Below are positions 4,635-64,000 of a stretch of DNA of 64,000 bases, in pieces. This DNA is from Alphaproteobacteria bacterium. Lineage in GTDB: Bacteria; Pseudomonadota; Alphaproteobacteria; UBA8366; Aestuariispiraceae. Every line of letters begins with the position of its first letter. Positions within the stretch are counted from its first letter, which is position 1. The notes beneath the pieces were generated by a model. It made no database searches. It worked only from the letters and a program-made list of their open reading frames with translations, and was not told the DNA's origin. The stretch covers positions 62,001 to 126,000 of the forward strand of contig JASJDC010000013.1 in assembly GCA_030065235.1 (NCBI GenBank), given 5' to 3'. Position numbers and translations under genes: made by a program.

Positions 4635-5036
4635 ATGATGTTCGAAACCACTCCGATCTACGCGTTAGCCGTGTCAGGAATCTACCTTGCGCTCTGGGTT
4701 CGGGTCGCCGCCCTCAGAGGATCACGGAACGTTTCCATTGGCGACGGCGGCGACCCAAACCTATTGCTTCGGATACGCCAACACGGCAATTGCGCCGAAT
4801 GGTCGGCCTTTGTGTTGATCCTGATGATCCTGGCCGAAGGCAGTGGCGCGCCTGAACTCTACCTGCATGCGGCGGGCGGCCTGCTGGTGATCGGACGTTT
4901 GGCTCATCCATTTGGGTTGAAGATTGATTCCGCAGACCACGCGCTGCGTTACATGGGTAATGGCGCCAACATTTTTGCAGCTTTGCTCTCGATGGTATGC
5001 CTGATCATCGGACTTCTTGACCTCTGGGGCCCGTAA
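4635..5036 (+). CDS. MAPEG-family integral membrane protein
   Basis: The 133-residue protein has four hydrophobic segments. It carries the MAPEG signature region: an arginine-rich first loop, then GDGG-PNLLLRIRQHGNCAEW with the conserved Arg-x-His-x-Asn pattern, and a later GRLAHPFGL. Eukaryotic MAPEG proteins are glutathione-dependent membrane transferases or eicosanoid enzymes, and the bacterial YecN/MAPEG branch is mostly uncharacterised. The gene lies 31 bp upstream of a DGPF-domain gene and an ECF sigma factor in the same direction, so it may be co-transcribed with them. Family confidence is high; substrate is unknown. Confidence 0.8.
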   Translation: MMFETTPIYALAVSGIYLALWVRVAALRGSRNVSIGDGGDPNLLLRIRQHGNCAEWSAFVLILMILAEGSGAPELYLHAAGGLLVIGRLAHPFGLKIDSADHALRYMGNGANIFAALLSMVCLIIGLLDLWGP

Positions 5037-5067
5037 CACGCCCCGTTCAGCATAAGGACCAGACGCG

Positions 5068-5427
5068 ATGAAATACATGCTCCTGATTTACAACGACCCC
5101 GACCAGGAACCTGGTTATGGCACGCCTGAATTCCAGGAAATGATGTCCGGCTTCTTCGCCGCCAACGAAAAGATGAAGTCCGACGGGGTTATGTGCGAAG
5201 GGGAAGGACTACAAGGGGTCGAGACGGCGACTTCTCTGCGGATCAAATCCGGCAAAGTGGAAACAATGGACGGGCCTTTCGCCGAAACCCGCGAACATCT
5301 GGGCGGGTATTATGTCGTCGACGTGCCCGACCTGGACGCCGCTCTGAATTACGCGGCGATGATCCCTTCAGCGAAATTCGGAACCATCGAGGTACGCCCT
5401 CTCATGGACTACAATCCAGCCGGCTGA
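5068..5427 (+). CDS. YciI/DGPF-domain protein
   Basis: This small 119-residue cytosolic protein starts MKYMLLIYNDP and carries MDGPFAETREHLGGYYVVD, the DGPF signature of YCII-related proteins, which form ferredoxin-like dimers. DGPF proteins are the standard genomic partner of ECF42 sigma factors, and the next gene, 5 bp downstream, is such a sigma factor. The biochemical role is unknown. Involvement in the sigma regulon or in a stress response is inferred only from this partnership. Confidence 0.85.
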   Translation: MKYMLLIYNDPDQEPGYGTPEFQEMMSGFFAANEKMKSDGVMCEGEGLQGVETATSLRIKSGKVETMDGPFAETREHLGGYYVVDVPDLDAALNYAAMIPSAKFGTIEVRPLMDYNPAG

Positions 5428-5432
5428 GCCCT

Positions 5433-6698
5433 GTGAACGACGCCGCCTCCAAAGCGATCGCGGTTCAAAAGGCCATCGACGACGTTATCCGCCGCGATCG
5501 GGGCCGGCTGATGGCCGGTCTCATCGCACGGTTGGGAGATTTCCAAACGGCGGAAGACGCCTTGCAAGAGGCGTCGATCTCCGCCCTGAGCCATTGGGGG
5601 CGCGCAGGAATTCCAAGCTCGCCAGCCGCATGGCTGATGAAGGTCGGATTCAATAGCGGCGTCAGTCAAATTCGCTCTAAGGCGCGCGAAGCTAAAAAAG
5701 CCATGGAACTGGAGAAGGTCGTCGAAGACCATGTCCGGATCGGTATCCCGGACGATTTTCCGGACGAACGGCTCCGCCTGATCTTTACATGCTGTCACCC
5801 TATCCTTGAGGAGAAGTCTCGGATCGCCCTGACCCTCCGCACTGTTTGCGGTTTGACGACTAAGGAAATCGCCAGGGCGTTCCTGGATACCGAGGTGGCG
5901 ATGGGCCAGCGACTGTCGAGAGCAAAGGCGAAGATCAGATCGAAAGGGATCGAATTCTCTGTACCGGAGCCCGAACAATGGTCGGATCGGTTGGGAACGG
6001 CGCTCTCGACGCTCTACCTGATTTTCACAACCGGATACGTATCGGAGGACACCGGGCCGCGGGATCTGTGTAGAGAAGCTTTGTTTCTCGTGCGCCTTCT
6101 GGAGAAGCTTCGACCGGAACAGCCTGAAATCGAAGGCGCCTTGGCGCTGATGCTGTTCGCAGAGGCAAGACAGCCCGCGCGTATCGCCCCGGACGGCGCA
6201 AGCGCACCGATTGCAGAACAAAACCGTGAGCTGTGGCGCAAAGACCTCATCACGGAAGGGAGAGACATCCTCGTTCGAGCCATGATGCGACGGCGTCCAG
6301 GACCCTTTCAGATCAAGGCGGCGATCGCGGATTGCCACATGTCGGACCCCATGCCCGACTGGCCCCAAATGTCGCTTCTTTACGAAAAACTGTGGCGCCT
6401 TGAACCGACGCCCGTCGTCACATTGAATTGGGCGGTTGTGCTGGCCGAACTCCAGCACACAGAACTGGCTCTGCAGAAGTTAACCGAGCTGCAGAGCGCA
6501 CTGTCCGATTTTCAGCCATGGCACGCCGCGCGAGCCAGTATGTTGGAGAAACTCCACCAGTTCCCCGAAGCGGCGGCCGCGTATCGCATCGCGATATACA
6601 AAGCCCCCAACGCGGCCAGCCGCGTCTTTCTCCAGAACAAATTGCGCCGTATTGAGAACCTGGGACAACCGGACGACAGCGCCAACGATTTGGCTTGA
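5433..6698 (+). CDS. ECF sigma factor with long C-terminal extension (ECF42-like)
   Basis: The protein of about 421 residues has sigma region 2 near residues 10-80 (DFQTAEDALQEASISAL), sigma-4 around residues 110-165 (RIALTLRTVCGLTTKEIARAF), and an extension of roughly 230 residues, including LGTALSTLYLIFTTGYV and TPR-like repeats near the end (PTPVVTLNWAVVLAEL). This layout and the immediately upstream DGPF gene are the hallmarks of the ECF42 group, which has no classical anti-sigma factor. The reading frame is open upstream to 5193, but that part lies inside the DGPF gene in another frame. GTG 5433, 5 bp after the DGPF stop, is preferred. Confidence 0.87.
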   Translation: MNDAASKAIAVQKAIDDVIRRDRGRLMAGLIARLGDFQTAEDALQEASISALSHWGRAGIPSSPAAWLMKVGFNSGVSQIRSKAREAKKAMELEKVVEDHVRIGIPDDFPDERLRLIFTCCHPILEEKSRIALTLRTVCGLTTKEIARAFLDTEVAMGQRLSRAKAKIRSKGIEFSVPEPEQWSDRLGTALSTLYLIFTTGYVSEDTGPRDLCREALFLVRLLEKLRPEQPEIEGALALMLFAEARQPARIAPDGASAPIAEQNRELWRKDLITEGRDILVRAMMRRRPGPFQIKAAIADCHMSDPMPDWPQMSLLYEKLWRLEPTPVVTLNWAVVLAELQHTELALQKLTELQSALSDFQPWHAARASMLEKLHQFPEAAAAYRIAIYKAPNAASRVFLQNKLRRIENLGQPDDSANDLA

Positions 6699-6757
6699 AG
6701 CGGCGCCGCGTCGCGGATGCGCCAATCAGCGCCTCGCAAATCACCCGGCTATGATGC

Positions 6758-7537
6758 CTAGCTACCGATCTTGTTGCGGCCGATGAGCGGGTATTGTTCG
6801 ACTTCGTAGGCTTGGCCGTTGATCGGCCAGGAGTCGTCAGAGAGCCAGAAGACCGCGTGCGGGGCGATATGCTCAGCCTTGAGGATCGAGCCCGAGGGCG
6901 CGAAGACTGACGGAACCTTAGTGTGCCAGTCTTCCGGATGGCCTTCTTTCAATTGGATTTGATGTTCGGTTTCGGTGAAGGTCCAGCCGACATTCAATTG
7001 ATTGACCCGGATATTCTCCGGCCCCAGAGCGTCTCCCAGGTTGCGCGTCATGGTCAGCAATGCGCCCTTGGACATGGAATAGGCGAGAATGTCGGTCTGG
7101 CCGCAATGGGCGTTGATCGAGCCGATATTCACCACCGACCCGCCGGTTCCCTGCGACCGGAAATGCTTGATCGCCGCTTGGATCAACAGGACCGGCGCGC
7201 GTGCATTAACGGCGAAAATCCTGTCGAATTCTTCCGGCTCTAGCGTGTCGATATTGTTGCGCGGGAAGATGCCGGCGTTGTTCACCAAGCCGTGAATGCC
7301 GCCGAAGGTCTCAACCGCCTTGTCGATAATCCGGGCTGGGCTTTCCGGGTCGGACAGGTCGGCGGCGATCCAGGTCGCGCGCGCGCCCAATTCGGCCGCA
7401 TGCGCCTCCAGAATCGCCGCACGGGAGCCGTGGACCACGACATTGGCCCCGGCCGCATGAACCGCCCGAGCGATGGACCAGCCGATTCCGCTGGTTGAAC
7501 CGGTAACGACAACCGTTTTATTCGATAAATCCGCCAC
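6758..7537 (-). CDS. Short-chain dehydrogenase/reductase
   Basis: This is a classical SDR of about 259 residues. It has the TGSTSGIG cofactor loop near the N terminus, NNAG, and catalytic Ser plus Tyr-x-x-x-Lys in YSMSKGA. It should be an NAD(P)(H)-dependent oxidoreductase of a sugar or hydroxy acid, but the substrate cannot be read from sequence. The frame extends to 7633 with a proline-rich, non-family N terminus. GTG 7537 (VADLSNKT) matches the normal SDR start. It converges with the ECF sigma gene and has no obvious operon partner. Confidence 0.82.
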   Translation of the reverse strand: MADLSNKTVVVTGSTSGIGWSIARAVHAAGANVVVHGSRAAILEAHAAELGARATWIAADLSDPESPARIIDKAVETFGGIHGLVNNAGIFPRNNIDTLEPEEFDRIFAVNARAPVLLIQAAIKHFRSQGTGGSVVNIGSINAHCGQTDILAYSMSKGALLTMTRNLGDALGPENIRVNQLNVGWTFTETEHQIQLKEGHPEDWHTKVPSVFAPSGSILKAEHIAPHAVFWLSDDSWPINGQAYEVEQYPLIGRNKIGS

Positions 7538-46872: not shown

Positions 46873-46948
46873 GGGTGCTTAGCTCAGTCGGTAGAGCAAC
46901 TGACTTTTAATCAGTAGGTCACAGGTTCGATCCCTGTAGCACCCACCA
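46873..46948 (+). tRNA. tRNA-Lys(UUU)
   Basis: This 76-nt cloverleaf has acceptor stem GGGTGCT/AGCACCC, D-arm AGCTCAGTCGGTAGAGC, anticodon stem CTGAC with anticodon TTT at 46906-46908, T-arm ACAGGTTCGATCCCTGT and an encoded 3' CCA. All arms pair. It is a free-standing gene between the exported-protein gene and the aldo/keto reductase-RidA gene. Confidence 0.98.
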
Positions 46949-46989: not shown

Positions 46990-48438
46990 ATGCTGCCGGA
47001 CACTGTTCGCCTTACTCCCGATCTGGCCTGCAGCCGGATCGTGCACGGGCTTTGGCAAGTGGCCGACATGGAAAAAGACGGGACCACGCTCGATCCCGCC
47101 AAGGCCGCCGCCGCGATGGCGGGGATCGCCGAACGAGGCTTCACCGCCTTTGACATGGCGGATCATTACGGCAGCGCGGAGATCATCGCCGGTCGCTTCC
47201 GGCGCGACCACGATCCGGATGGCGCTGTGAAGCTTTTCACCAAATGGTGCCCGGAACCGGGATATTTGAGCGCAAGCGACATCCGCGACGGCGCACAGCG
47301 CTCTTTCGATCGGATGGGATTGGAAAGCATCGATCTGCTGCAATTCCATTGGTGGCGCTACCAGCATCCGGCCTATCTCGACTGCCTCGCAGAACTGGCG
47401 CGGCTCAAGGAACAAGGTCGGATCAAGGCCTTGGGGCTGACCAACTTCGACACCGATCACCTGCATGTCGCTCTCGCCCAGGGGATCCCGATATCGACGA
47501 ACCAAGTCTGCTACTCGCTGCTCGACCGGCGCGCCGGCGGGCGCATGGCCGCGCTGTGTCAGGCGCAAGGCGTGCAACTGCTCTGTTACGGCGTCTTGGC
47601 CGGCGGGTTTCTGAGCGACCGCTGGCTCGGCGCGCCCGAACCGACGGAAATCGCCGACTACAGCAAGTCGAAATATAAGCGCTTTATCGACCAGACGGGC
47701 GGCTGGGCGGCGTTCCAGACCCTGTTGCGGGCAATTCGGCGGGTTGCCGACCGTCACGAAGCCACTCTGTCGCAGATCGCCGTGCGCTGGGTGCTGGATC
47801 AGCCCGCCGTCGGCGCGGCGATCGTCGGCGTACGGCTTGGCGAGACCGACCACAGCGCAGAGACGGCGCGAATCCTCGAGATCGCCCTGACAGACGACGA
47901 CCGCGCCGAATTGGACAAGGGCGCCGCGGCGATGACGCCATTGGCGGGCGATTGCGGCGACGAGTATCGCAAACCGCCCTTCCTGACGGCCTCGGGCGAC
48001 CTCAGCGATCACTTGGACGGGCTGGCGTCCCCATTCACGGCGGTAGCGGACTCGCGCGGCCGGCTCAGGGTCAGGTCCGGCAGCCCATGGGAAGACATCG
48101 CCGGCTATTGCCGCGCCCTACGCGTCGGCGACCGGATTACGGTCAGCGGGACGACCGCGACCCATACGGACGGATCGACGGTGGCGCCGGGTGACCAGAC
48201 AGCCCAAGCGATCTATGTCTTGGACAAGATCGACGCAGCGATCGAAGCGCTTGGCGGCGGGCTCGAACATGTCACGCGCACACGGGTCTTCGTCACGGAT
48301 ATTGACCAATGGGAGGGCGTCGCGCGGGCGCATGGCCGCGTGTTCGGCGACCACAGCCCGACCAATACCCTCGTTGAAGTCAGCGGTCTCGTCGGCGATT
48401 TCCAAGTCGAGATCGAGGCGGAAGCGACCATCGATTAA
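46990..48438 (+). CDS. Aldo/keto reductase fused to a RidA-family domain
   Basis: The 482-residue protein has an aldo/keto reductase barrel at 1-310, with tetrad residues visible in FDMADHYGSAE (Asp, Tyr), FTKWCPEPG (Lys) and LLQFHWWRY (His). A linker follows, then a RidA/YjgF domain at about 355-482 (RITVSGTTATHTDG, TRTRVFVTDIDQWEGVARAH). By eye, the RidA catalytic arginine position reads Asn (SPTNTLVEVSG), so classic imine deaminase activity is doubtful. The natural substrate is unknown. Confidence 0.85.
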   Translation: MLPDTVRLTPDLACSRIVHGLWQVADMEKDGTTLDPAKAAAAMAGIAERGFTAFDMADHYGSAEIIAGRFRRDHDPDGAVKLFTKWCPEPGYLSASDIRDGAQRSFDRMGLESIDLLQFHWWRYQHPAYLDCLAELARLKEQGRIKALGLTNFDTDHLHVALAQGIPISTNQVCYSLLDRRAGGRMAALCQAQGVQLLCYGVLAGGFLSDRWLGAPEPTEIADYSKSKYKRFIDQTGGWAAFQTLLRAIRRVADRHEATLSQIAVRWVLDQPAVGAAIVGVRLGETDHSAETARILEIALTDDDRAELDKGAAAMTPLAGDCGDEYRKPPFLTASGDLSDHLDGLASPFTAVADSRGRLRVRSGSPWEDIAGYCRALRVGDRITVSGTTATHTDGSTVAPGDQTAQAIYVLDKIDAAIEALGGGLEHVTRTRVFVTDIDQWEGVARAHGRVFGDHSPTNTLVEVSGLVGDFQVEIEAEATID

Positions 48439-51536: not shown

Positions 51537-51602
51537 ATACTTTATATCTAAAATTTATAGGTCTATAGTTCTCAGCGTTCATCTCGGCTGAGGATGGAAG
51601 GC
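51537..51602 (+). promoter_or_regulatory. AT-rich promoter/operator candidate of the aryl-CoA operon
   Basis: A roughly 35-bp AT-rich island in high-GC sequence holds the inverted repeat TATAG (51556-51560)/CTATA (51563-51567), overlapping an imperfect CTAAAATTTATAG palindrome (51548-51560). It lies 36-55 bp before the first gene of an operon that encodes a MarR regulator, which typically binds such AT-rich palindromes. Confidence 0.5.
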
Positions 51603-53891
51603 ATGAAAATCGCCTGTATCGGCGGCGGCCCGGCCGGCCTCTATTTCGCAATCTCCATGAAGCTGCGCGATCCGGCGCATGAGATTGTCGTCATCGAGCG
51701 CAACCGGCCCTACGACACGTTCGGCTGGGGCGTCGTCTTCTCTGACCAGACGATGGACAATCTGAGGCGCAACGATCCGAAAAGCGCCGATTTGATCCTG
51801 GGTGAGTTCGCGCATTGGGACGATATCGCGACCTATTTCAAGGGAACTTGCGAACGGTCCACCGGCCATGGCTTCGCCGGGATCGGCCGGAAACGGATGC
51901 TCAATATCCTGCAAGACCGGGCGGTAGAGCTGGGCGTGACGCTCGAATTCGAGACCGAGGTCGGCGACCTCGACGCCTACGCCGATTATGACCTCATCGT
52001 CGCCTGCGACGGGCTGAACAGCCGCATCCGCAACCAGTATGAAGAGGTCTTCCAACCGGACATCGACCTGCGGCCTAACCGTTATATCTGGCTCGGCACG
52101 CACAAGCTCTTCGACGCCTTCACCTTCATTTTCGAAGAGACCGAGCATGGCTGGATCTGGGTCCACGCCTATCGCTTCGATAACGACACCTCCACCTTCA
52201 TCGTCGAATGCACCGAAGAGACCTGGCGCGGCCTGGGGCTGGACACCGCCACCACCGACGAGTCGATTGAATTATGTGAGCGCATCTTCGGCGACCATCT
52301 CAACGGCTGCGCCCTGATGAGCAATGCGCGGCATCTACGTGGTTCGGCCTGGCTTAATTTCCCGCGGGTGAATTGCCGGCAATATCATCATAAGAACATC
52401 GTCCTGATGGGCGACGCCGCGCATACGGCGCACTTCTCTATTGGATCGGGCACCAAGCTGGCCCTAGAGGACGCGATCGTTCTGGCCGACCTGCTGCATG
52501 AGGAAGCGAGCCTGGAAGACGCCTTCGCGAAGTATCAAAAAGCGCGGCGGCTGGAGGTGCTGAAACTGCAAAGCGCGGCGCGCAACTCGATGCAATGGTT
52601 CGAGGATGTCGAGCGCTACACCCATTTCGATCCGCCGCAATTCTTTTACGCGCTGCTGACCCGGTCGCAGCGGGTCAGCCACGATAATCTCCGACTGCGC
52701 GATCCGAACTGGCTGGAGGGGGTCGAGCGCTGGTTCGCCGGCGCGTCGGAGGAAGATCGCGCCAACGAATCCGCGCCGCCGCCGATGCTGACCCAATTCA
52801 CCCTGCGCGACATGACCCTCGCCAACCGGATCGTCGTCTCGCCAATGGCGACCTATAGCGCCAGCGACGGGACGCCCAACGATTTCCACAAGGTGCATCT
52901 CGGATCGCGCGCTCAAGGCGGCGCCGGGCTGGTCTTCACCGAGATGACTTGCGTCACGCCGGACGGGCGGATCACGCCGGGCTGCCCGGGCCTGTACAAT
53001 GACGCGCAGCAGGAAGCCTGGGCCGGCATAGTGGAATTCGTTCATGCCTGGACGCCGGCCAAGATCGCGCTGCAATTGGGCCATGCGGGGCCCAAGGGCT
53101 CGACCAAGATCGGCTGGGAAGGCATGGATCAGCCTTTAGATGCGGGGAATTGGCCGCTGCTGGCCCCTTCCCCCATCCCGTGGTCGGACGCCAATCAGAC
53201 GCCCCGAGAAATGACCGAAGAGGATATGGCGGCGGTCATCGACGCCTTCGTCGCCGCGACGAAGCGGGCGATCGCATGCGCCTTCGATTTGCTCGAACTG
53301 CATGCCGCCCATGGCTATCTGCTCTCCGCTTTCTTGACGCCGCTGACCAACCGGCGCACCGACGATTTTGGCGGGTCTTTGGAAAATCGGCTGCGTTTTC
53401 CGCTCGCGGTGTTTCGGGCGATGCGGGCGGTCTGGCCCGCTGAAAAGCCGATGTCGGTGCGGATCTCCGCCCATGACTGGTCCGGCGAGACCGGCAACAC
53501 GGACACGGACGCGGTTGAAATCGCGCGCGCCTTCAGCGCAGCCGGGGCCGATCTGATCGATGTCTCGGCCGGTCAGACCAGCACGGACGCCAAGCCTGTC
53601 TATGGGCGGATGTTCCAGACCCCCTTCTCGGACCGTATCCGGAACGAGCTGCAGATCGCCACGATGGCGGTCGGCAATATCTTCGAACCCGATCATGTGA
53701 ACAGCATCCTCGCCGCGGGCCGCGCCGATCTCTGCGCGCTTGGCCGCCCGCATCTCGCCGATCCGTATTGGACCCTGCACGCCGCAGCCCAACAACAGGC
53801 GCCGATCGCCTGGCCGAACCCCTATCTGGCGGGCGAAGACCAGTATCGGCGCAATCTCTCCCGCGCCGCCGACATGGCGATCAAGGTCTGA
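51603..53891 (+). CDS. Bifunctional flavin monooxygenase/reductase, 2-aminobenzoyl-CoA monooxygenase/reductase type
   Basis: The fused protein of about 762 residues has an N-terminal FAD hydroxylase ([17 protein letters not shown], later [15 protein letters not shown] near 270) and a C-terminal old-yellow-enzyme domain from about 395 ([40 protein letters not shown]). It should hydroxylate the aryl-CoA at C5 and then reduce the ring, as known for 2-aminobenzoyl-CoA monooxygenase/reductase. The related salicylyl-CoA 5-hydroxylase is the main alternative. ATG 51603 has an AGGA site at suitable spacing. It is the first gene of the operon. Confidence 0.87.
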
Positions 53892-53895
53892 CGCC

Positions 53896-54684
53896 GTGAG
53901 TGATGCGCCCGATCCCAAACCCCATGCCGGTCGCACGGCGATCGTGACCGGCGGCGGATCGGGTATCGGTCTGGCCGTCGCCGCGCGTCTGGCGCGGGAA
54001 GGCGCGCGCATCGCCATCCTTGGCCGGGATGGGCGCCGTGTGGAGACAGCGGCAGACGCGTTTGACGGCGCTCAAGGTTTCGCCTGCGATGTCACCGATG
54101 CAGCGCAGGTCCAGGAGGCGGTTGGGCGCATTGATGCGACGCTCGGCCCGGCGCAAATCCTGGTGAACAGCGCCGGCGCGGCCGAATCGGCGCCCTTCGA
54201 GAAGACCGACCCGGCGCTCTTCAATCGGATGCTGGCGGTGAATCTGACCGGCGTCTTCCTGATGACCCAGGCCGCGCTGCCGGCGATGAAGTCGGCTGGC
54301 TGGGGCCGGGTCATCTCCGTCGCTTCCACCGCCGGATTGAAGGGCTACGCCTATGTCAGCGCCTATAGCGCAGCGAAGCATGGCGTTATCGGCCTGACCC
54401 GGTCACTGGCCCTGGAAACGGCGCGCAGCGGCGTCACGGTCAATGCGGTCTGCCCCGGCTTCACCGAGACGCCGCTGTTGGAGCGGTCTGTCGCCAATAT
54501 CACCGCCAAGACTGGGATGCCGGACGCGGAGGCCCGCGCGTCGCTGACCGAAGCCAATCCGCAAGGACGCTTGATCGCGCCAGAGGATGTGGCCGACGCG
54601 GTCTCCTGGCTGGCGTCCGACGGGGCGCATGCGATCACCGGGCAAGCGTTGGCGGTGGCCGGCGGCGAGGTGATGGTCGGATGA
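53896..54684 (+). CDS. Short-chain dehydrogenase/reductase of the aryl-CoA operon
   Basis: This classical SDR of about 262 residues has TGGGSGIGLA, LVNSAGAAES, the catalytic YSAAKHG and a final [13 protein letters not shown]. It is probably a 3-hydroxyacyl-CoA or ring-alcohol dehydrogenase in the later beta-oxidation-like steps. GTG 53896 follows the monooxygenase stop by 4 bp. The upstream frame to 53740 reads into the monooxygenase and was rejected. Its TGA overlaps the ATG of the MarR gene. Confidence 0.87.
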   Translation: MSDAPDPKPHAGRTAIVTGGGSGIGLAVAARLAREGARIAILGRDGRRVETAADAFDGAQGFACDVTDAAQVQEAVGRIDATLGPAQILVNSAGAAESAPFEKTDPALFNRMLAVNLTGVFLMTQAALPAMKSAGWGRVISVASTAGLKGYAYVSAYSAAKHGVIGLTRSLALETARSGVTVNAVCPGFTETPLLERSVANITAKTGMPDAEARASLTEANPQGRLIAPEDVADAVSWLASDGAHAITGQALAVAGGEVMVG

Positions 54685-55190
54685 CGCTCCCGCGCACGAG
54701 AGAGAATGATCGGTTGGCCGATCCAGGCGGCAAGGAGGCGCTGCGCCTTTGGCTGCGCCTGCTGGACGCGTCGCGCCTCATCGAAGACGCGGTCTCCAGC
54801 CGATTGCGCGACCGATACGGCGTCTCCCTCGCCCGTTTCGATTTGTTGGCGGTTCTGTACGCGGCGGAGAACGGTCTGACCATGGGCGATATCGGCCGCC
54901 GTCTGCGGGTCACCGGCGGCAATGTCACCGGCCTTGTCGACCGGTTGGAGAAGGAGGGCCTGGCCGCTCGGCGGCCGCATCCGACAGACCGCCGCGCCTT
55001 CTTCGTGGCTCTGACCGCCAAGGGCCGGCGAGACTTTGCATCGATGGCGCAAGAGCATGAAGGTTGGGTGCAAGAAATCCTCGCAGGCGTGAATGAGTCG
55101 CAAAGAAACGACCTGACCGCCCTGTTGGCGTCGGTGCGGGCCTCCGCCATGGACGCCGAAGCGCACTGGAATGAACAGGAGGCTCGTTGA
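54681..55190 (+). CDS. MarR-family transcriptional regulator
   Basis: The 169-residue winged-helix regulator has the MarR core [27 protein letters not shown] and the recognition helix and wing [34 protein letters not shown]. It is embedded inside the catabolic operon, as in other aryl-CoA gene clusters where an aryl-CoA thioester releases the repressor. The likely operator is the AT-rich palindrome in front of the first gene. Overlaps on both sides (ATGA and TGATG) indicate translational coupling. Confidence 0.92.
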
Positions 55191-55996
55191 TGATGGCTAT
55201 TCCCACGCCTGAGCATTTTGATCTCGCCCTGCGCGGCGATGTCGCGATCGTAACCTTGAACCGGCCGGAGAAAAAGAACCCGCTGACCTTCGAGTCCTAT
55301 GCCGAACTGCGCGATTTCTTCCGCGATCTGGACCGCCAGTCGGCGATCAAGGCCGTCGTGATCACCGGGGCCGGCGGGAATTTCTGCTCCGGCGGTGATG
55401 TTTTCGAGATCATTCAGCCGCTGCTCGAAAAGGACATGGCCGGACTGCTGGAATTCGCCCGCATGACCGGCGATCTGGCGAAATTCATCAACGCCTGCCC
55501 GGTTCCGGTGATCGCCGCGGTGGACGGGGTCTGCGCCGGGGCCGGGGCGATGATCGCGCTCTATGCGGATATCCGTTTCGGAACGCCGGCGGCCAAGACG
55601 GCCTTTCTGTTCACCCGTGTCGGGCTCGCCGGCTGCGATATGGGGGCCTGCGCGATGCTGCCCCGGGTGATCGGCCAGGGCCGCGCCGCCGACCTGCTTT
55701 TCACCGGCCGGACGATGACCGCCGAGGAAGGCGAGCGCTGGGGTTTCTTCAACCGCGTCGTCCCGCCCGAAAAGCTGCTGGAAGAGGCGATCGCCTACGC
55801 GGCGCGGCTGACCGCGGGCCCGAATTTCGCGCATGGCATGACCAAGACCATGCTGAACCAGGAATGGGACATGTCGCTGGCGCAGGCGATCGAGGCGGAA
55901 GCGCAGGCCCAGGCGATCTGCATGCAGACAAGGGACTTCCACCGCGCCTTTCACGCTTTCGCAGAGAAAGAAAAGCCAAGGTTCGAGGGGAACTAA
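55190..55996 (+). CDS. Crotonase-fold protein (enoyl-CoA hydratase/isomerase-like)
   Basis: This crotonase of about 268 residues has [16 protein letters not shown], the oxyanion region [13 protein letters not shown] and [18 protein letters not shown]. By eye, the two hydratase glutamates are absent: the first position reads Met or Ile (AGAGAMIAL), and the second reads Thr-Arg (LFTRVGL). The aspartate in [11 protein letters not shown] aligns with the dienoyl-CoA isomerase aspartate. It may act as an isomerase or ring hydrolase. ATG 55190 sits behind AGGAGG. Confidence 0.85.
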
Positions 55997-56002
55997 CCTT
56001 CC

Positions 56003-57220
56003 ATGCCCGACGCGACTTTCCTCGACTGGCCTTTTTTCGAGCCGTCCCATCGGGTGCTGGCCGAAGGGTTGGAGGATTGGGCGCGCGCGTCTTTGCCGGC
56101 CCTGCTCAAGACCGCTGAAGAGGACCTGGACGGGACCTGCCGGCGTCTAGTCGAGGCCCTGGCGGCGGCTGGCTGGCTCGACTACGCGGTTCCGGCCAGC
56201 CATGGCGGCAGGTTCGAACGCCTGGATGTGCGATCTCTCTGCCTGATCCGCGAAATCCTGGCGCGGCATAGCGGCCTGGCCGATTTCGCCTTCGTCATGC
56301 AGGGGTTAGGAAGCGGTCCGATCAGCCTGATGGGGAGCGCGGCGCAGAAGGACGCCTGGCTTCAGAAGGTGCGGCGCGGTCAGGCGATCGCCGCCTTCGC
56401 CTTGTCTGAGCCCGAGGCCGGCTCCGACGTCGCCGCCTTGGCCGCAACGGCGGAAGATCACGGCGATCATTGGCGGATCCATGGCGAAAAGACCTGGATC
56501 AGCAATGGCGGTCTCGCCGATTTCCACACGCTGGTCGTTCGCACCGGCTCACCCGAGGATGGCGCACGCGGATTGAGCGCCTTCCTCTGCCCCGCCGACA
56601 CGCCCGGCCTGGAGGTGGTCGAGCGGATCGAGGTCATCGCCCCACACCCGCTGGCCCGGCTCCGTTTCAATGATCTCCGCCTGCCGAAAGACGCGCTGAT
56701 TGGCGCGGTCGGGGCCGGGTTCAAACTCGCCATGGCGAACCTGGATATCTTCCGCTCGACCGTCGGCGCGGCGGCGCTTGGCTTCGCCCGTCGCGCGTTG
56801 GACGAGACGCTGGGACGGGCAGGAACCCGCCACTTGTTCGGCGCGCCGATGAGCGAGCTTCAGATGGTGCAAGGCAAGCTGGCCGACATGGCGCTGCGCG
56901 TCGACGCCGCCGCGCTCCTGGTTTATCGCGCCGCCTGGACCAAGGATTCCGGCGCGGAACGGGTCACGCGCGAGGCCAGCATGGCGAAACTCTACGCGAC
57001 AGACGAGGCGCAGAAAGTGATCGATGACGCGGTGCAGCTGTTCGGCGGTCATGGGGTGGTCAGCGGCCATCCGGTCGAGACGCTCTATCGCGAGATCCGC
57101 GCCTTGCGAATCTATGAAGGCGCATCGGAGGTTCAGAAACTAATCATCGCTCGGCAGGCCATGGCGGATTTTGCGGCGGGTAGCACCATCGACGCCGCGC
57201 CTTCGCGGGAGGGATCTTAA
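56003..57220 (+). CDS. Acyl-CoA dehydrogenase of the aryl-CoA operon
   Basis: The 405-residue FAD enzyme has [17 protein letters not shown] for flavin contact, [21 protein letters not shown] and the catalytic glutamate in [16 protein letters not shown]. It would oxidise an acyl-CoA formed after ring hydrolysis. It lies between the crotonase (6 bp) and the ligase (stop and GTG start adjacent), so it is inside a tightly packed operon. The N-terminal region ([20 protein letters not shown]) is typical of dehydrogenases in aromatic degradation clusters. Confidence 0.9.
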
Positions 57221-58855
57221 GTGGGCGCCTATACCGCGCATCGCGACACGTTCGCCCGAGACAACCTGCCGCCGGCGAACCAGTTGCCGGATTTTCTGCT
57301 TGGTGAACCGCCCTTTGACTATCCCGAAAAACTTAATTGTATTGAAGAGTTACTGGACAAAGCTGTGACGCGGGGTTGGGGCGACCGGCCTTGCCTGATA
57401 GCGCCTGCGATGCGCTGGACCTATGCCGAGCTGAAAGCGCAAACCGACCGTATCGCCCATGTCCTGATCGAGGATTTGGGGCTGCAACCGGGGAACCGCG
57501 TGCTCCTGCGCGCCGCCAATAACCCAATGATGGTCGCTTGCTGGTTCGCCGTGGCGAAGGCGGGCGGGATCGTTGTCGCCACCATGCCCTTGCTGCGCGC
57601 CCAGGAACTCTCGGTGATCATCGACAAGGCGGAGATCGATCTGGCGCTGTGCGACGAGCGGCTAATGGCGGAGATGACGGGCGCCCAGCGGCTTAGTCCG
57701 CGACTGAAACGGATTTGCCTGTTCAATGGCGAGACCGGCGGGGCGGAGTTGGAAGGCCTGACAGCGGCGAAGCCCGACCATTTCGACCCGGTCCCGACCG
57801 CCAGCGACGATGTGGTCCTGATCGCCTTCACCTCCGGCACCACCGGCAAGCCCAAGGGCACGATGCATTTCCATCGCGACATCATCGCGATCTGCGACGC
57901 TGTACCGGCGCACTGTCTGCAGGTGAAACAAAGCGACGTTTTCATCGGTTCTCCGCCCCTCGCCTTCACCTTCGGGCTCGGCGGGCTGGTCCTGTTCCCG
58001 ATGCGCTATGGGGCCTCAACCGTCCTGCTGGAGAAGGCGACGCCGCCCGCCTTGCTGGACGCGATCCCAACCTATGGCGCGACCACGCTGTTCACCGCGC
58101 CGACCGCCTACCGCGCGATCATGACGGCGATCGAAGAGGCGGCGCCGCATCGGGATGACGCCCTCGCCTCTCTGCATAGCTGCGTCTCGGCCGGCGAGAC
58201 TTTGCCCAGCGCCACTTTCGAGGCCTGGAAGCGGATGACCGGAATCGCCTGCGTCGACGGGCTCGGCTCGACCGAGTTGCTGCATATCTTCATCGCCGCC
58301 CCGGCGGACCAGATGCGCGCGGGCGCCACCGGCAAGCCGATCCCGGGTTACGAGGCGCGCGTCGTCGATGACGCCATGAAAGACCTACCGCCCGGCGAGG
58401 TTGGCAAGCTGGCGGTGCGCGGCCCGACCGGCTGCCGCTATCTCGCTGACGACCGTCAGACTGTCTATGTGCGCGACGGCTGGAACCTGACCGGCGACGC
58501 CTATTGGGTCGATGAGGACGGCTATTTCCATTTCGCCGCGCGCGCCGACGATATGATCATCAGCGCCGGCTATAACATCGCCGGGCCGGAAGTCGAGGAC
58601 TGCCTGTTGGGCCATGCCGCTGTCGCTGAATGCGCGGTGATCGGCGCGCCGGATGAAGAGCGCGGGACCATCGTCAAAGCCTATATCGTGCTGCGCGCTG
58701 GCCATAACCCCGGAACCGCGTTGACCGATGCGCTGCAAGACTGGGTCAAACAGCGGATCGCGCCCTACAAATACCCGCGCGCCATCGAATTCGTCGATGC
58801 GTTGCCCAAGACCGAGACCGGCAAGGTGCAGCGTTTCAAACTGCGCGGCGACTAG
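57221..58855 (+). CDS. Benzoate/2-aminobenzoate-CoA ligase-like enzyme
   Basis: The 544-residue ANL-family ligase has IAFTSGTTGKPKGTMHFH, CVDGLGSTELLHIF and the catalytic lysine in PKTETGKVQRFKL. The start (TAHRDTFARDNLPPANQLPDFL) is typical of 2-aminobenzoate-CoA ligases. It would activate anthranilate or another benzoate with ATP and CoA, the first step of the pathway. GTG 57221 follows the dehydrogenase stop without a gap. Substrate choice among benzoate, anthranilate and salicylate needs context; the fused monooxygenase favours anthranilate. Confidence 0.88.
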   Translation: MGAYTAHRDTFARDNLPPANQLPDFLLGEPPFDYPEKLNCIEELLDKAVTRGWGDRPCLIAPAMRWTYAELKAQTDRIAHVLIEDLGLQPGNRVLLRAANNPMMVACWFAVAKAGGIVVATMPLLRAQELSVIIDKAEIDLALCDERLMAEMTGAQRLSPRLKRICLFNGETGGAELEGLTAAKPDHFDPVPTASDDVVLIAFTSGTTGKPKGTMHFHRDIIAICDAVPAHCLQVKQSDVFIGSPPLAFTFGLGGLVLFPMRYGASTVLLEKATPPALLDAIPTYGATTLFTAPTAYRAIMTAIEEAAPHRDDALASLHSCVSAGETLPSATFEAWKRMTGIACVDGLGSTELLHIFIAAPADQMRAGATGKPIPGYEARVVDDAMKDLPPGEVGKLAVRGPTGCRYLADDRQTVYVRDGWNLTGDAYWVDEDGYFHFAARADDMIISAGYNIAGPEVEDCLLGHAAVAECAVIGAPDEERGTIVKAYIVLRAGHNPGTALTDALQDWVKQRIAPYKYPRAIEFVDALPKTETGKVQRFKLRGD

Positions 58856-58873
58856 CGCCTTCGGGAGGACGCC

Positions 58874-59293
58874 ATGACCATCGAGTTTCTGCATCCCGAA
58901 GGCTGGCGCCGCGGCAAAGGCTATTCCCATGGCGCGTCGGTCGTCCTGCAACCCGGCGACCGACTGGTCGAGGTGGCCGGTCAGATCGGCTGGACCGGGG
59001 ACCAGGTCTTCGAGACGGACGATCTGGTCAGCCAGGCACGGCAGGCGCTGCAAAACACGGTCGCCATTCTGGCCGAGGCCGGCGGCGGGCCGGAACATGT
59101 CCTGTCGATGACCTGGTACATCACGGATAAGGCGGAGTGCCTGGCGCGTCAGGCCGAGATGGGCGACGCCTATCGCGAAACCTTCGGCCGCGTCTTCCCA
59201 GCGATGGCGATGGTCGAAGTCCGCGCCTTGATGGAGGACCGGGCCAAGGTCGAGATCGAAAGCCGTGCGGTCATCCCGGCAGCGCGGCCATAG
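58874..59293 (+). CDS. RidA-family protein of the aryl-CoA operon
   Basis: The 139-residue RidA/YjgF-fold protein has QARQALQNTVAILAEAGG and VLSMTWYITDKAE. At the RidA arginine site the sequence is FPAMAMVEV, Met in place of Arg, so canonical imine hydrolysis may not occur. The 18-bp spacing to the ligase puts it in the operon. In an anthranilate pathway a role on the amino (enamine) group of a ring-reduced intermediate is attractive but inferred. Confidence 0.87.
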   Translation: MTIEFLHPEGWRRGKGYSHGASVVLQPGDRLVEVAGQIGWTGDQVFETDDLVSQARQALQNTVAILAEAGGGPEHVLSMTWYITDKAECLARQAEMGDAYRETFGRVFPAMAMVEVRALMEDRAKVEIESRAVIPAARP

Positions 59294-61983: not shown

Positions 61984-62772
61984 ATGAGCGACGAGATCAC
62001 AGCCATCAACAATATCGACCTGACCGGCAAGACGGCGCTGGTCACCGGCGCGAGCCAAGGGATCGGAGCGGCGGCGGCGAAACGTCTGGCGCTGGCGGGC
62101 GCGAATGTGGTGCTGGCGGCCCGGCAGCGCGACAGGCTGGCCAGCTTGGCGGCGGAGATTGGGGACAAGGCCCTGGCGGTTCCCTGCGACGTGACCTCCT
62201 GGGGCGCGGTAAAAGCGGCGGTTGATGCCGCGGTCGAGCGATTCGGGTCGCTCGACATTCTGGTCAACAACGCCGGCTCGATCGAGCCGATCGCGCGGCT
62301 GGCGGACTCCGATCCTCACGCCTGGGGCGAGGTGATCGATGTGAATCTGAAAGGCGTCTATTATGGCCTGCGGGCGGCGATCCCGCTGATGGAAGCGCAA
62401 GGCGGCGGCGTGATCATCAATATCTCGTCCGGCGCGGCGACCAACGCGTTGGAAGGCTGGAGCCATTATTGCGCCAGCAAGGCCGCTGTCCTGATGCTGA
62501 CCAAGTCCGTTCACAAGGAATATGCCGACAAGGGCGTGCGGGTCGTCGGCCTCAGCCCGGGCACGGTCGCGACCGACATGCAGCACGCGATCAAGGACAG
62601 CGGGATCAACCCGGTCAGCCAGTTGGATTTCTCGATCCATATCCCCGCCGCCTGGCCGGCGGAAGCAATCGCCTGGCTCTGCACCGATGCGGCGCGGCCC
62701 TATGACGGCGGCGACTTCTCGATCAAGACCGACGAAGGGCGCGCCGCCGTCGGTCTCGACCCGGCCGCTTAG
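61984..62772 (+). CDS. Short-chain dehydrogenase/reductase convergent with boxB
   Basis: The classical SDR of about 262 residues has VTGASQGIGAAAAKRL, LVNNAGSIEP, and the catalytic HYCASKAA, ending DFSIKTDEGRAAVG. ATG 61984 has an AAGGAG ribosome-binding site. The frame to 61900 has no site. Its TAG overlaps the boxB TAA on the other strand by 4 bp. A role in aryl-CoA breakdown is suggested by the neighbours only. Confidence 0.87.
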   Translation: MSDEITAINNIDLTGKTALVTGASQGIGAAAAKRLALAGANVVLAARQRDRLASLAAEIGDKALAVPCDVTSWGAVKAAVDAAVERFGSLDILVNNAGSIEPIARLADSDPHAWGEVIDVNLKGVYYGLRAAIPLMEAQGGGVIINISSGAATNALEGWSHYCASKAAVLMLTKSVHKEYADKGVRVVGLSPGTVATDMQHAIKDSGINPVSQLDFSIHIPAAWPAEAIAWLCTDAARPYDGGDFSIKTDEGRAAVGLDPAA

Positions 62773-64000
62773 TGAATGCGGACATAGTCGTAATTGACCG
62801 CCTGGCTGTTAATGCCGCGGTCGGGCGGCGCGATCCAGCCGGCCATCTTGCCGGGCTCGGTAACCGCCACCATCAGCGATTTTACATAGGCGCGGTCCGC
62901 CTCGGTCGGCAGCCAGGTCGAGGCCTTCGCGGCGAAGGTCTCGGCGCTGACACGGTTCCCAGCCGGGTCGGTATGGACGCCCGCCCACGGACCGACAGAG
63001 CGCCGGAAATGCGGGCTGGGCAGGGTGATTTCGACATCGAACCCAGCCTTTTTGATCGATCGGTTCCAGCGCGTCAGGCCGATCCGGCAGTCGTCGATAT
63101 AGGCGCGGCGGACAATGTCGTTCATCGCGTTCCGCATCGGGATTTCCTGGATTGTCGGGCCTTCGACCCCGTTCGGAACCTCGAGCTCATAGACCGCGTC
63201 AGCGACCACATGATCCTCGAATTTCAGCTTTTCGTCCGGCCGCCCTTTTAGCCCATTGGCGAAATAAGTCGCAGCGTTTGACGAGCTTTCGGAACCGAAC
63301 AGGTCCATGCAGCTTGAGAACCAGAAATTCACATAACGTTGCAGCAGCGGCAGATCGATGACGCCCGCCTTGCGCAAGGTCTCCGGATCGTCGGTCTTCA
63401 GATCGGCCATCATCTGATTCGTGCGTTTGATGATCCGACCGATACCGGTCTCGCCGACGAACATGTGATGCGCTTCTTCGGTCAGCATGAACTGACAGGT
63501 CCGGGCCAGCGGATCGAAGCCGCTTTCCGCGAGGCTCTTCAACTGGAACTTGCCGTCCCGGTCGGTAAAATAGGTGAACATGAAGAAGGACAGCCAATCG
63601 TCGATCGGCTCGTTGAAGGTGCCGAGGATGCGCGGATTGTCCGGGTCGCCCGAATGGCGGTGCAGCAACTCCTCCGCCTCTTCCCGACCGTCTCGGCCGA
63701 AATGGGCGTGCAGCAGATAGACCATGGCCCAGAGGTGGCGACCTTCCTCGACATTCACCTGAAACAGATTGCGCAGGTCATAGAGCGACGGACAGGTCTG
63801 GCCCAAGAGCCTTTGCTGTTCGACCGAGGCCGGTTCGGTATCGCCCTGGGTGACGATCAGATTGCGCAGCGGCGCGCGGAACTCGCCGGGCACTTCCTGC
63901 CAGGCCGGCTTTCCGTAATAGTCGCCGAAACCGATCGTCCGGTCCGGCTCGCGATCGGCGAGAAAAACGCCCCAGCGATAGTCCGGCATCTTCACATGGC
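62769..64000 (-). CDS. boxB: Benzoyl-CoA 2,3-epoxidase oxygenase subunit BoxB (5' end beyond the window)
   Basis: The visible 3' part of about 410 residues starts HVKMPDYRWGVFLA at the right edge, a sequence internal to BoxB, so the true start lies outside the window. The diiron site is visible in NVEEGRHLWAM and LTEEAHHMFVGETG, and the gene ends WIAPPDRGINSQAVNYDYVRIH-like. BoxB, with the reductase BoxA, makes 2,3-epoxybenzoyl-CoA. This fits the nearby aryl-CoA ligase. boxA and boxC, if present, lie to the right. Confidence 0.92.
   Translation of the reverse strand, partial: HVKMPDYRWGVFLADREPDRTIGFGDYYGKPAWQEVPGEFRAPLRNLIVTQGDTEPASVEQQRLLGQTCPSLYDLRNLFQVNVEEGRHLWAMVYLLHAHFGRDGREEAEELLHRHSGDPDNPRILGTFNEPIDDWLSFFMFTYFTDRDGKFQLKSLAESGFDPLARTCQFMLTEEAHHMFVGETGIGRIIKRTNQMMADLKTDDPETLRKAGVIDLPLLQRYVNFWFSSCMDLFGSESSSNAATYFANGLKGRPDEKLKFEDHVVADAVYELEVPNGVEGPTIQEIPMRNAMNDIVRRAYIDDCRIGLTRWNRSIKKAGFDVEITLPSPHFRRSVGPWAGVHTDPAGNRVSAETFAAKASTWLPTEADRAYVKSLMVAVTEPGKMAGWIAPPDRGINSQAVNYDYVRIH

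Follow-up and report, generated by a model that had tools for sequence, protein, structure and literature searches.

A conserved bacterial aldo/keto reductase-Rid fusion with asparagine at the RidA arginine position and a genomic link to tryptophan and anthranilate catabolism

A two-domain protein downstream of tRNA-Lys

The gene under study lies in a window of 64,000 nucleotides, which is the whole stretch of DNA analysed here, and encodes a single polypeptide in which an aldo/keto reductase (AKR) domain is followed by a domain of the Rid (RidA/YjgF/UK114) family [Table 1]. Both halves score well above the Pfam cut-offs: Aldo_ket_red (PF00248) matches residues 16-310 with an E-value of 1.4e-57 (195.4 bits; cut-off 24) and Ribonuc_L-PSP (PF01042) matches residues 370-480 with an E-value of 2.2e-21 (76.5 bits; cut-off 27.3). 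These scores and the existence of 80 homologous fusions bear out the AKR-RidA fusion proposed in an earlier note on this DNA and, together with an invariant Asn-Thr pair in the Rid half (N459-T460, see below), rule out a chance or misread fusion.

Table 1. Features of the fusion gene and of its surroundings in the window (coordinates are window positions)
Feature	Coordinates	Strand	Basis or remark
tRNA-Lys(TTT), next gene upstream of the fusion	46873..46948	+	ARAGORN
AKR-Rid fusion gene, 482 aa	46990..48438	+	ATG at 46990, stop at 48438; 80 homologous fusions
Aldo/keto reductase domain, residues 16-310	47035..47919	+	Pfam Aldo_ket_red
AKR catalytic tetrad codons D55; Y60; K85; H120	47152-47154; 47167-47169; 47242-47244; 47347-47349	+	codon mapping
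Inter-domain bridge, residues 320-341 (GDCGDEYRKPPFLTASGDLSDH)	47947..48012	+	highest conservation in the protein
Rid (Ribonuc_L-PSP) domain, residues 370-480	48097..48429	+	Pfam; structure model
N459 (AAT) at the RidA Arg105 position	48364..48366	+	alignment to E. coli RidA; invariant 81/81
E474, equivalent of RidA Glu120	48409..48411	+	alignment; invariant 81/81
FAD monooxygenase-OYE fusion (ABMR)	51594..53891	+	NCBIfam name salicylyl-CoA 5-hydroxylase/oxidoreductase
Rest of the probable anthraniloyl-CoA operon: SDR, MarR regulator, enoyl-CoA hydratase, acyl-CoA dehydrogenase, aryl-CoA ligase	53881..58855	+	order as in L193
Separate RidA-family gene (RidA2) of the same operon	58874..59293	+	Met at the Arg105 position

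The fold and the D-Y-K-H tetrad are those of the aldo/keto reductase superfamily, and the four tetrad residues are invariant in all family sequences covering those sites in the 81-protein alignment. By its domain and its intact tetrad, the N-terminal half is thus classed as an aldo/keto reductase, with NADPH-dependent carbonyl reduction as its predicted activity. What sets the fusion apart within the superfamily is the invariant bridge and, C-terminal to it, the Rid domain. None of the curated NCBIfam equivalogs fits either half, the nearest AKR model being methylglyoxal reductase, with a score far below its cut-off; the Rid half likewise reaches 54.7 bits against the Rid detoxifying hydrolase model TIGR00004, below the cut-off of 106.25. 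Both domains are confident in a single-chain AlphaFold model built from 54 input sequences (mean pLDDT 91.4, pTM 0.92), and confidence drops in a single segment around residues 334-336. The best fold matches to this model in the PDB are AKRs, the closest being E. coli Tas, AKRtyl and AKR11B, and the closest solved structure to the Rid half by sequence is M. tuberculosis 3i7t. By sequence, the AKR half finds its best PDB match in an AKR-like structural protein from cilia, radial spoke protein 5 (7jtk).

A fixed asparagine and an invariant bridge

Alignment of the Rid half to E. coli RidA, whose reference sequence is identical to that of PDB 1qu9, places N459 at the position of Arg105, Y373 at that of Tyr17 and E474 at that of Glu120. 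The asparagine that the earlier note had read by eye is therefore confirmed, and the N459-T460 pair is invariant in all 81 fusion proteins (the window protein and its 80 homologues), none of which carries an arginine there. A residual arginine hidden by misalignment is ruled out, as the PxNT motif of the family aligns gap-free beside the PARS motif of E. coli RidA. The Tyr17 column holds Tyr in 73 of the 81 proteins and Phe in the other 8, and the strictness of conservation at the AKR active site is matched by that of the Tyr17 and Glu120 equivalents, R375, R432, H448, N459 and T460.

The family thus shares with the RidA/YjgF/UK114 imine deaminases the fold and the equivalents of Tyr17 (or Phe) and Glu120 that mark an archetypal RidA, but differs from them by the absence of the Arg105 equivalent, replaced by Asn throughout, by the attached reductase and by its score below the TIGR00004 cut-off. 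The combination of N459 with E474, a residue other than arginine at the Arg105 position with the glutamate kept, is instead the pattern of the Rid4-Rid7 subfamilies, which have already been described as devoid of the arginine and whose functions were called completely unknown (PMC4433059). The fusions differ from these in that Asn is fixed, whereas Rid4 and Rid7 have Trp and Rid5 and Rid6 are variable at this position; the nearest other Rid proteins have mostly Ser. Given that whole Rid subfamilies lack the arginine and that the other Rid protein of the window has Met in its place, the replacement is by itself unsurprising; here it is a fixed trait of the family. It is explained equally well by a ligand devoid of an alpha-carboxylate and by loss of catalysis, Arg105 having been treated as the determinant of deaminase activity (PMC5619798).

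The Met of the RidA-family gene of the probable anthraniloyl-CoA operon is found in three genomes (58874-59293 of the window; L193, 1982-2488; L027, 9045-9431) and may suit an enamine substrate of the CoA-thioester type.

Conservation is highest in the bridge between the two domains, where 15 of 22 columns are invariant as opposed to 91 of 482 in the whole protein (P 3e-7); the 25 residues that follow hold no invariant column. The bridge is absent from most sister AKR2 proteins (AKR2, a second AKR, is described below). Since the substrate pocket of AKR superfamily members is commonly shaped by C-terminal segments, it is reasonable to infer that the bridge serves the AKR site while orienting the Rid domain.

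Distribution and genomic context of the family

The homologues compared here, the best 80 of 103 tblastn relatives in GTDB contigs, are 46-58% identical to the window protein and come mostly from Alphaproteobacteria and Bacteroidota. The fusion is kept in all 80; nearly all are full-length matches, the remainder being cut by contig ends. The earlier note had asked whether the genes are split in most relatives. In a survey of 385 genomes sampled evenly from the class Alphaproteobacteria, all nine genomes with hits above 500 bits encode full-length fusions, the next-ranked matches (below 261 bits) are standalone AKRs, and no split orthologue was found. In agreement with this survey, the fusion AKR domains form one clade in the tree (SH-aLRT 99) with no split orthologue inside it, six rows labelled 'other' being Bacteroidota fusions themselves, entered twice. 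Split genes are thus ruled out inside this clade; a Rid gene standing apart from the reductase occurs only alongside sister AKRs. The clade divides into a Bacteroidota side and a mainly proteobacterial side, on which the window protein is the deepest branch; a search of 13 relatives from the same family gave no fusion-like match in any of them, which makes the presence of the fusion patchy in the window's lineage. As judged from these sequences, the two domains were joined a single time and have stayed together since, in a fusion that is ancient and conserved among bacteria. Searches of the open-licence literature gave no account of such a fusion, and the proteins constitute a stable, uncharacterised family.

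Clustering of neighbours and annotated plasmids place the fusion, in Alphaproteobacteria, with genes for an ABC transporter of the branched-chain type, for a GntR regulator, for a second AKR (AKR2, approximately 36-42% identical) and for a TIGR04076 protein, and in 16 loci of Bacteroidota it is preceded by a co-oriented gene for an APC amino-acid permease. These partners (GntR, ABC, AKR2, TIGR04076, permease) recur across many genera of the two phyla. The ABC transporter and permease settings both point to an imported amino-acid-like compound. The fusion family belongs to a small uptake-and-catabolism module, which recurs next to genes of the route from tryptophan through kynurenine and anthranilate to anthraniloyl-CoA; on rhizobial plasmids the module is found bare, with no tryptophan genes adjoining.

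Elsewhere, tryptophan dioxygenase (TDO), kynureninase (KynU), formamidase-like, HyuA/HyuB and aryl-CoA genes occur both around the fusion and in clusters of sister AKRs. TDO/KynU have been placed independently in six fusion loci (L027, L017, L075, L029, L037, L013) and also in three AKR clusters devoid of the fusion (L168, L178, L179). The clearest single locus is L193 of Marivivens, in which the order RidA2-KynU-TDO-CoA ligase-ACAD-ECH-MarR-SDR-ABMR is followed by a formamidase-like gene, the fusion, GntR, AKR2 and ABC genes. TDO lies within 11 kb of the fusion in 5 of 36 TDO-bearing fusion genomes against 0.19 expected (P 1.6e-6), TDO having been made a query post hoc, after it was sighted beside some fusions; three of these five TDO genes are within 100 bp of the fusion. 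Of the nine fusion genomes in the sample of 385, 8 carry TDO, compared with 60 of 376 others (Fisher 5e-6). Both statistics share the post hoc choice of TDO and are uncorrected for genome size and kinship. TDO is absent from 14 of 50 fusion genomes, so that co-occurrence with the pathway is not obligatory, and since several of them (e.g., rhizobial G423-G426) have neither TDO nor kynureninase over the cut-off, the kynurenine pathway cannot be obligatory either. Gene context thus supports a link to tryptophan/anthranilate catabolism, albeit not an obligatory one.

In the window itself the fusion is a lone gene following tRNA-Lys, with no linked transporter adjoining; AKR2 and TIGR04076 were not found in this genome at the thresholds used, the TIGR04076 search having matched no control genome either, which makes this second absence a tentative one, and TDO and KynU are present elsewhere in the genome, unlinked to the fusion. 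An operon starting 3.2 kb downstream (51594-59293) has the gene order of the L193 block, without TDO and KynU. Its first product, a 63% homologue of which is found in the tryptophan cluster of L029/L193, is probably an anthraniloyl(2-aminobenzoyl)-CoA monooxygenase/reductase, a substrate favoured over the salicylyl-CoA of the NCBIfam name because KynU and TDO lie inside the L193 block. BoxB (benzoyl-CoA 2,3-epoxidase) is encoded at 62769-63995, the end of the window, which places a benzoyl-CoA pathway near the probable anthraniloyl-CoA one.

Possible functions of the fusion

The fusion and the asparagine of the earlier note stand; its interpretation, in which loss of imine hydrolysis and substrate channelling are possibilities, does so only in part, as loss of the arginine is not novel (PMC4433059) and the transporter and tryptophan contexts suggest that the AKR is not just any carbonyl reductase. 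What is new is the genomic context rather than the arginine loss. Our tentative proposal, for which the case is nearly balanced, is that the protein may act as an NADPH-dependent reductase in tryptophan/kynurenine-type catabolism, the Rid domain of which would handle an imine, enamine or carbonyl substrate devoid of the usual carboxylate. The protein would be one enzyme with two working halves, in which the AKR would use NADPH on a ketone (or imine) of a tryptophan/kynurenine-type amino compound or side product, and the Asn-type Rid domain, trimeric like other Rid proteins, would bind that compound as an imine, an enamine or a carbonyl, the two sites being coupled by the bridge. The exchange of Arg for Asn would suit a ligand lacking the free alpha-carboxylate that Arg105 of RidA grips, a possibility made plausible by the Met found at this position in the Rid protein of the anthraniloyl-CoA operon, the presumed substrate of which is a CoA thioester. 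The likeliest order of events would have Rid hydrolyse the imine or enamine and the AKR then reduce the resulting carbonyl before side reactions occur. The imine logic comes from sister AKR clusters L166 and L167, in which a separate Rid gene with the PTNT motif of the fusion adjoins genes for an FAD-dependent oxidase and AKRs; the simplest reading of such clusters would be that the oxidase makes an imine, Rid hydrolyses it and the AKR reduces the carbonyl. Rid-fold enamine deaminases acting in aromatic amine degradation are known (2-aminomuconate deaminase and others, cited in PMC6449761) but are not described there as reductase fusions, which distinguishes them from the present protein.

Against this proposal stand the solitary fusion of the window, its unlinked TDO and KynU, and the fusion genomes without TDO and kynureninase. 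In addition, published assays connect the deaminase reaction with the arginine, Arg105 being treated as its determinant (PMC5619798), and imine hydrolysis by the Rid half may accordingly be lacking altogether. A Rid domain that binds a ligand or serves as a scaffold is therefore a serious rival: the domain would be a catalytically dead sensor or trimerisation scaffold organising the AKR, which alone would perform chemistry on the imported compound. The loss of the determinant in every family member and the trimer formation reported for Rid proteins are in its favour, but conservation of the Tyr17 and Glu120 equivalents, R375, R432, H448, N459 and T460 exceeds the needs of a scaffold, and the standalone PTNT Rid of sister clusters and a second Rid copy in L013 suggest a unit valuable on its own; on balance we regard a dead Rid domain as unlikely. 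This alternative concerns the Rid half, while two others concern the pathway, and they are not mutually exclusive. The AKR pair and Rid might catabolise an amino compound unrelated to tryptophan, tryptophan genes having been added later in some lineages. The bare module of rhizobial plasmids, genomes such as G423-G426 that are devoid of TDO, and the HyuA/HyuB and FAD-oxidase partners of sister clusters, suggestive of lactam and amine chemistry, agree with such a history, which is made rather doubtful, yet far from negligible, by the independent placement of TDO/KynU in six fusion loci and three non-fusion AKR clusters. General detoxification, with the AKR clearing toxic aldehydes and ketones and Rid clearing reactive imines outside any fixed pathway, and with a tryptophan linkage that reflects the gathering of such genes in aromatic-catabolism islands, would account for methylglyoxal reductase as the nearest, albeit far below cut-off, NCBIfam AKR model, for the orphan gene of the window and for fusion genomes without TDO or KynU; the recurrence of the same adjoining partners across genera and two phyla and a TDO linkage far above chance make it distinctly improbable.

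A more ambitious form of the tryptophan/kynurenine proposal, which we likewise hold to be improbable, would make the Asn-type Rid a distinct catalyst for carboxylate-free imines and enamines, and the fusion an enzyme working in two steps, hydrolysis of the imine followed by reduction of the carbonyl, on an undescribed branch of tryptophan/kynurenine or oxidised-tryptophan breakdown in bacteria. Were it true, it would provide the first function for an Arg-less Rid group. The fusion, its bridge and the tryptophan/anthranilate clusters name candidate substrates for the question of the Arg-less Rid proteins, and point to rhizobial and roseobacter replicons as carriers of a module that would take up and process compounds resembling tryptophan or kynurenine.

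Several observations in related loci are of separate interest. Sister clusters L166 (2148-10236) and L178 (1-18023) combine HyuA/HyuB, kynureninase-like genes, Rid, several AKRs, TIGR04076 and an ABC transporter, with an FAD oxidase in addition in L166, and look like an undescribed lactam/amine catabolic system. L013 encodes a triple-domain AKR-Rid-Rid protein (5001-6815) with Asn in both Rid units, followed by kynureninase, HyuB and HyuA; the genome it comes from, G434, has three fusion copies, each followed by kynureninase. Finally, a peptide-deformylase-like gene directly follows the fusion in Acuticoccus (L089, 9447-9947) and a 64% identical gene accompanies TDO, a formamidase-like gene and KynU in a cluster of the kynurenine type (L168, 1375-1869); its product is possibly an N-formylkynurenine deformylase.
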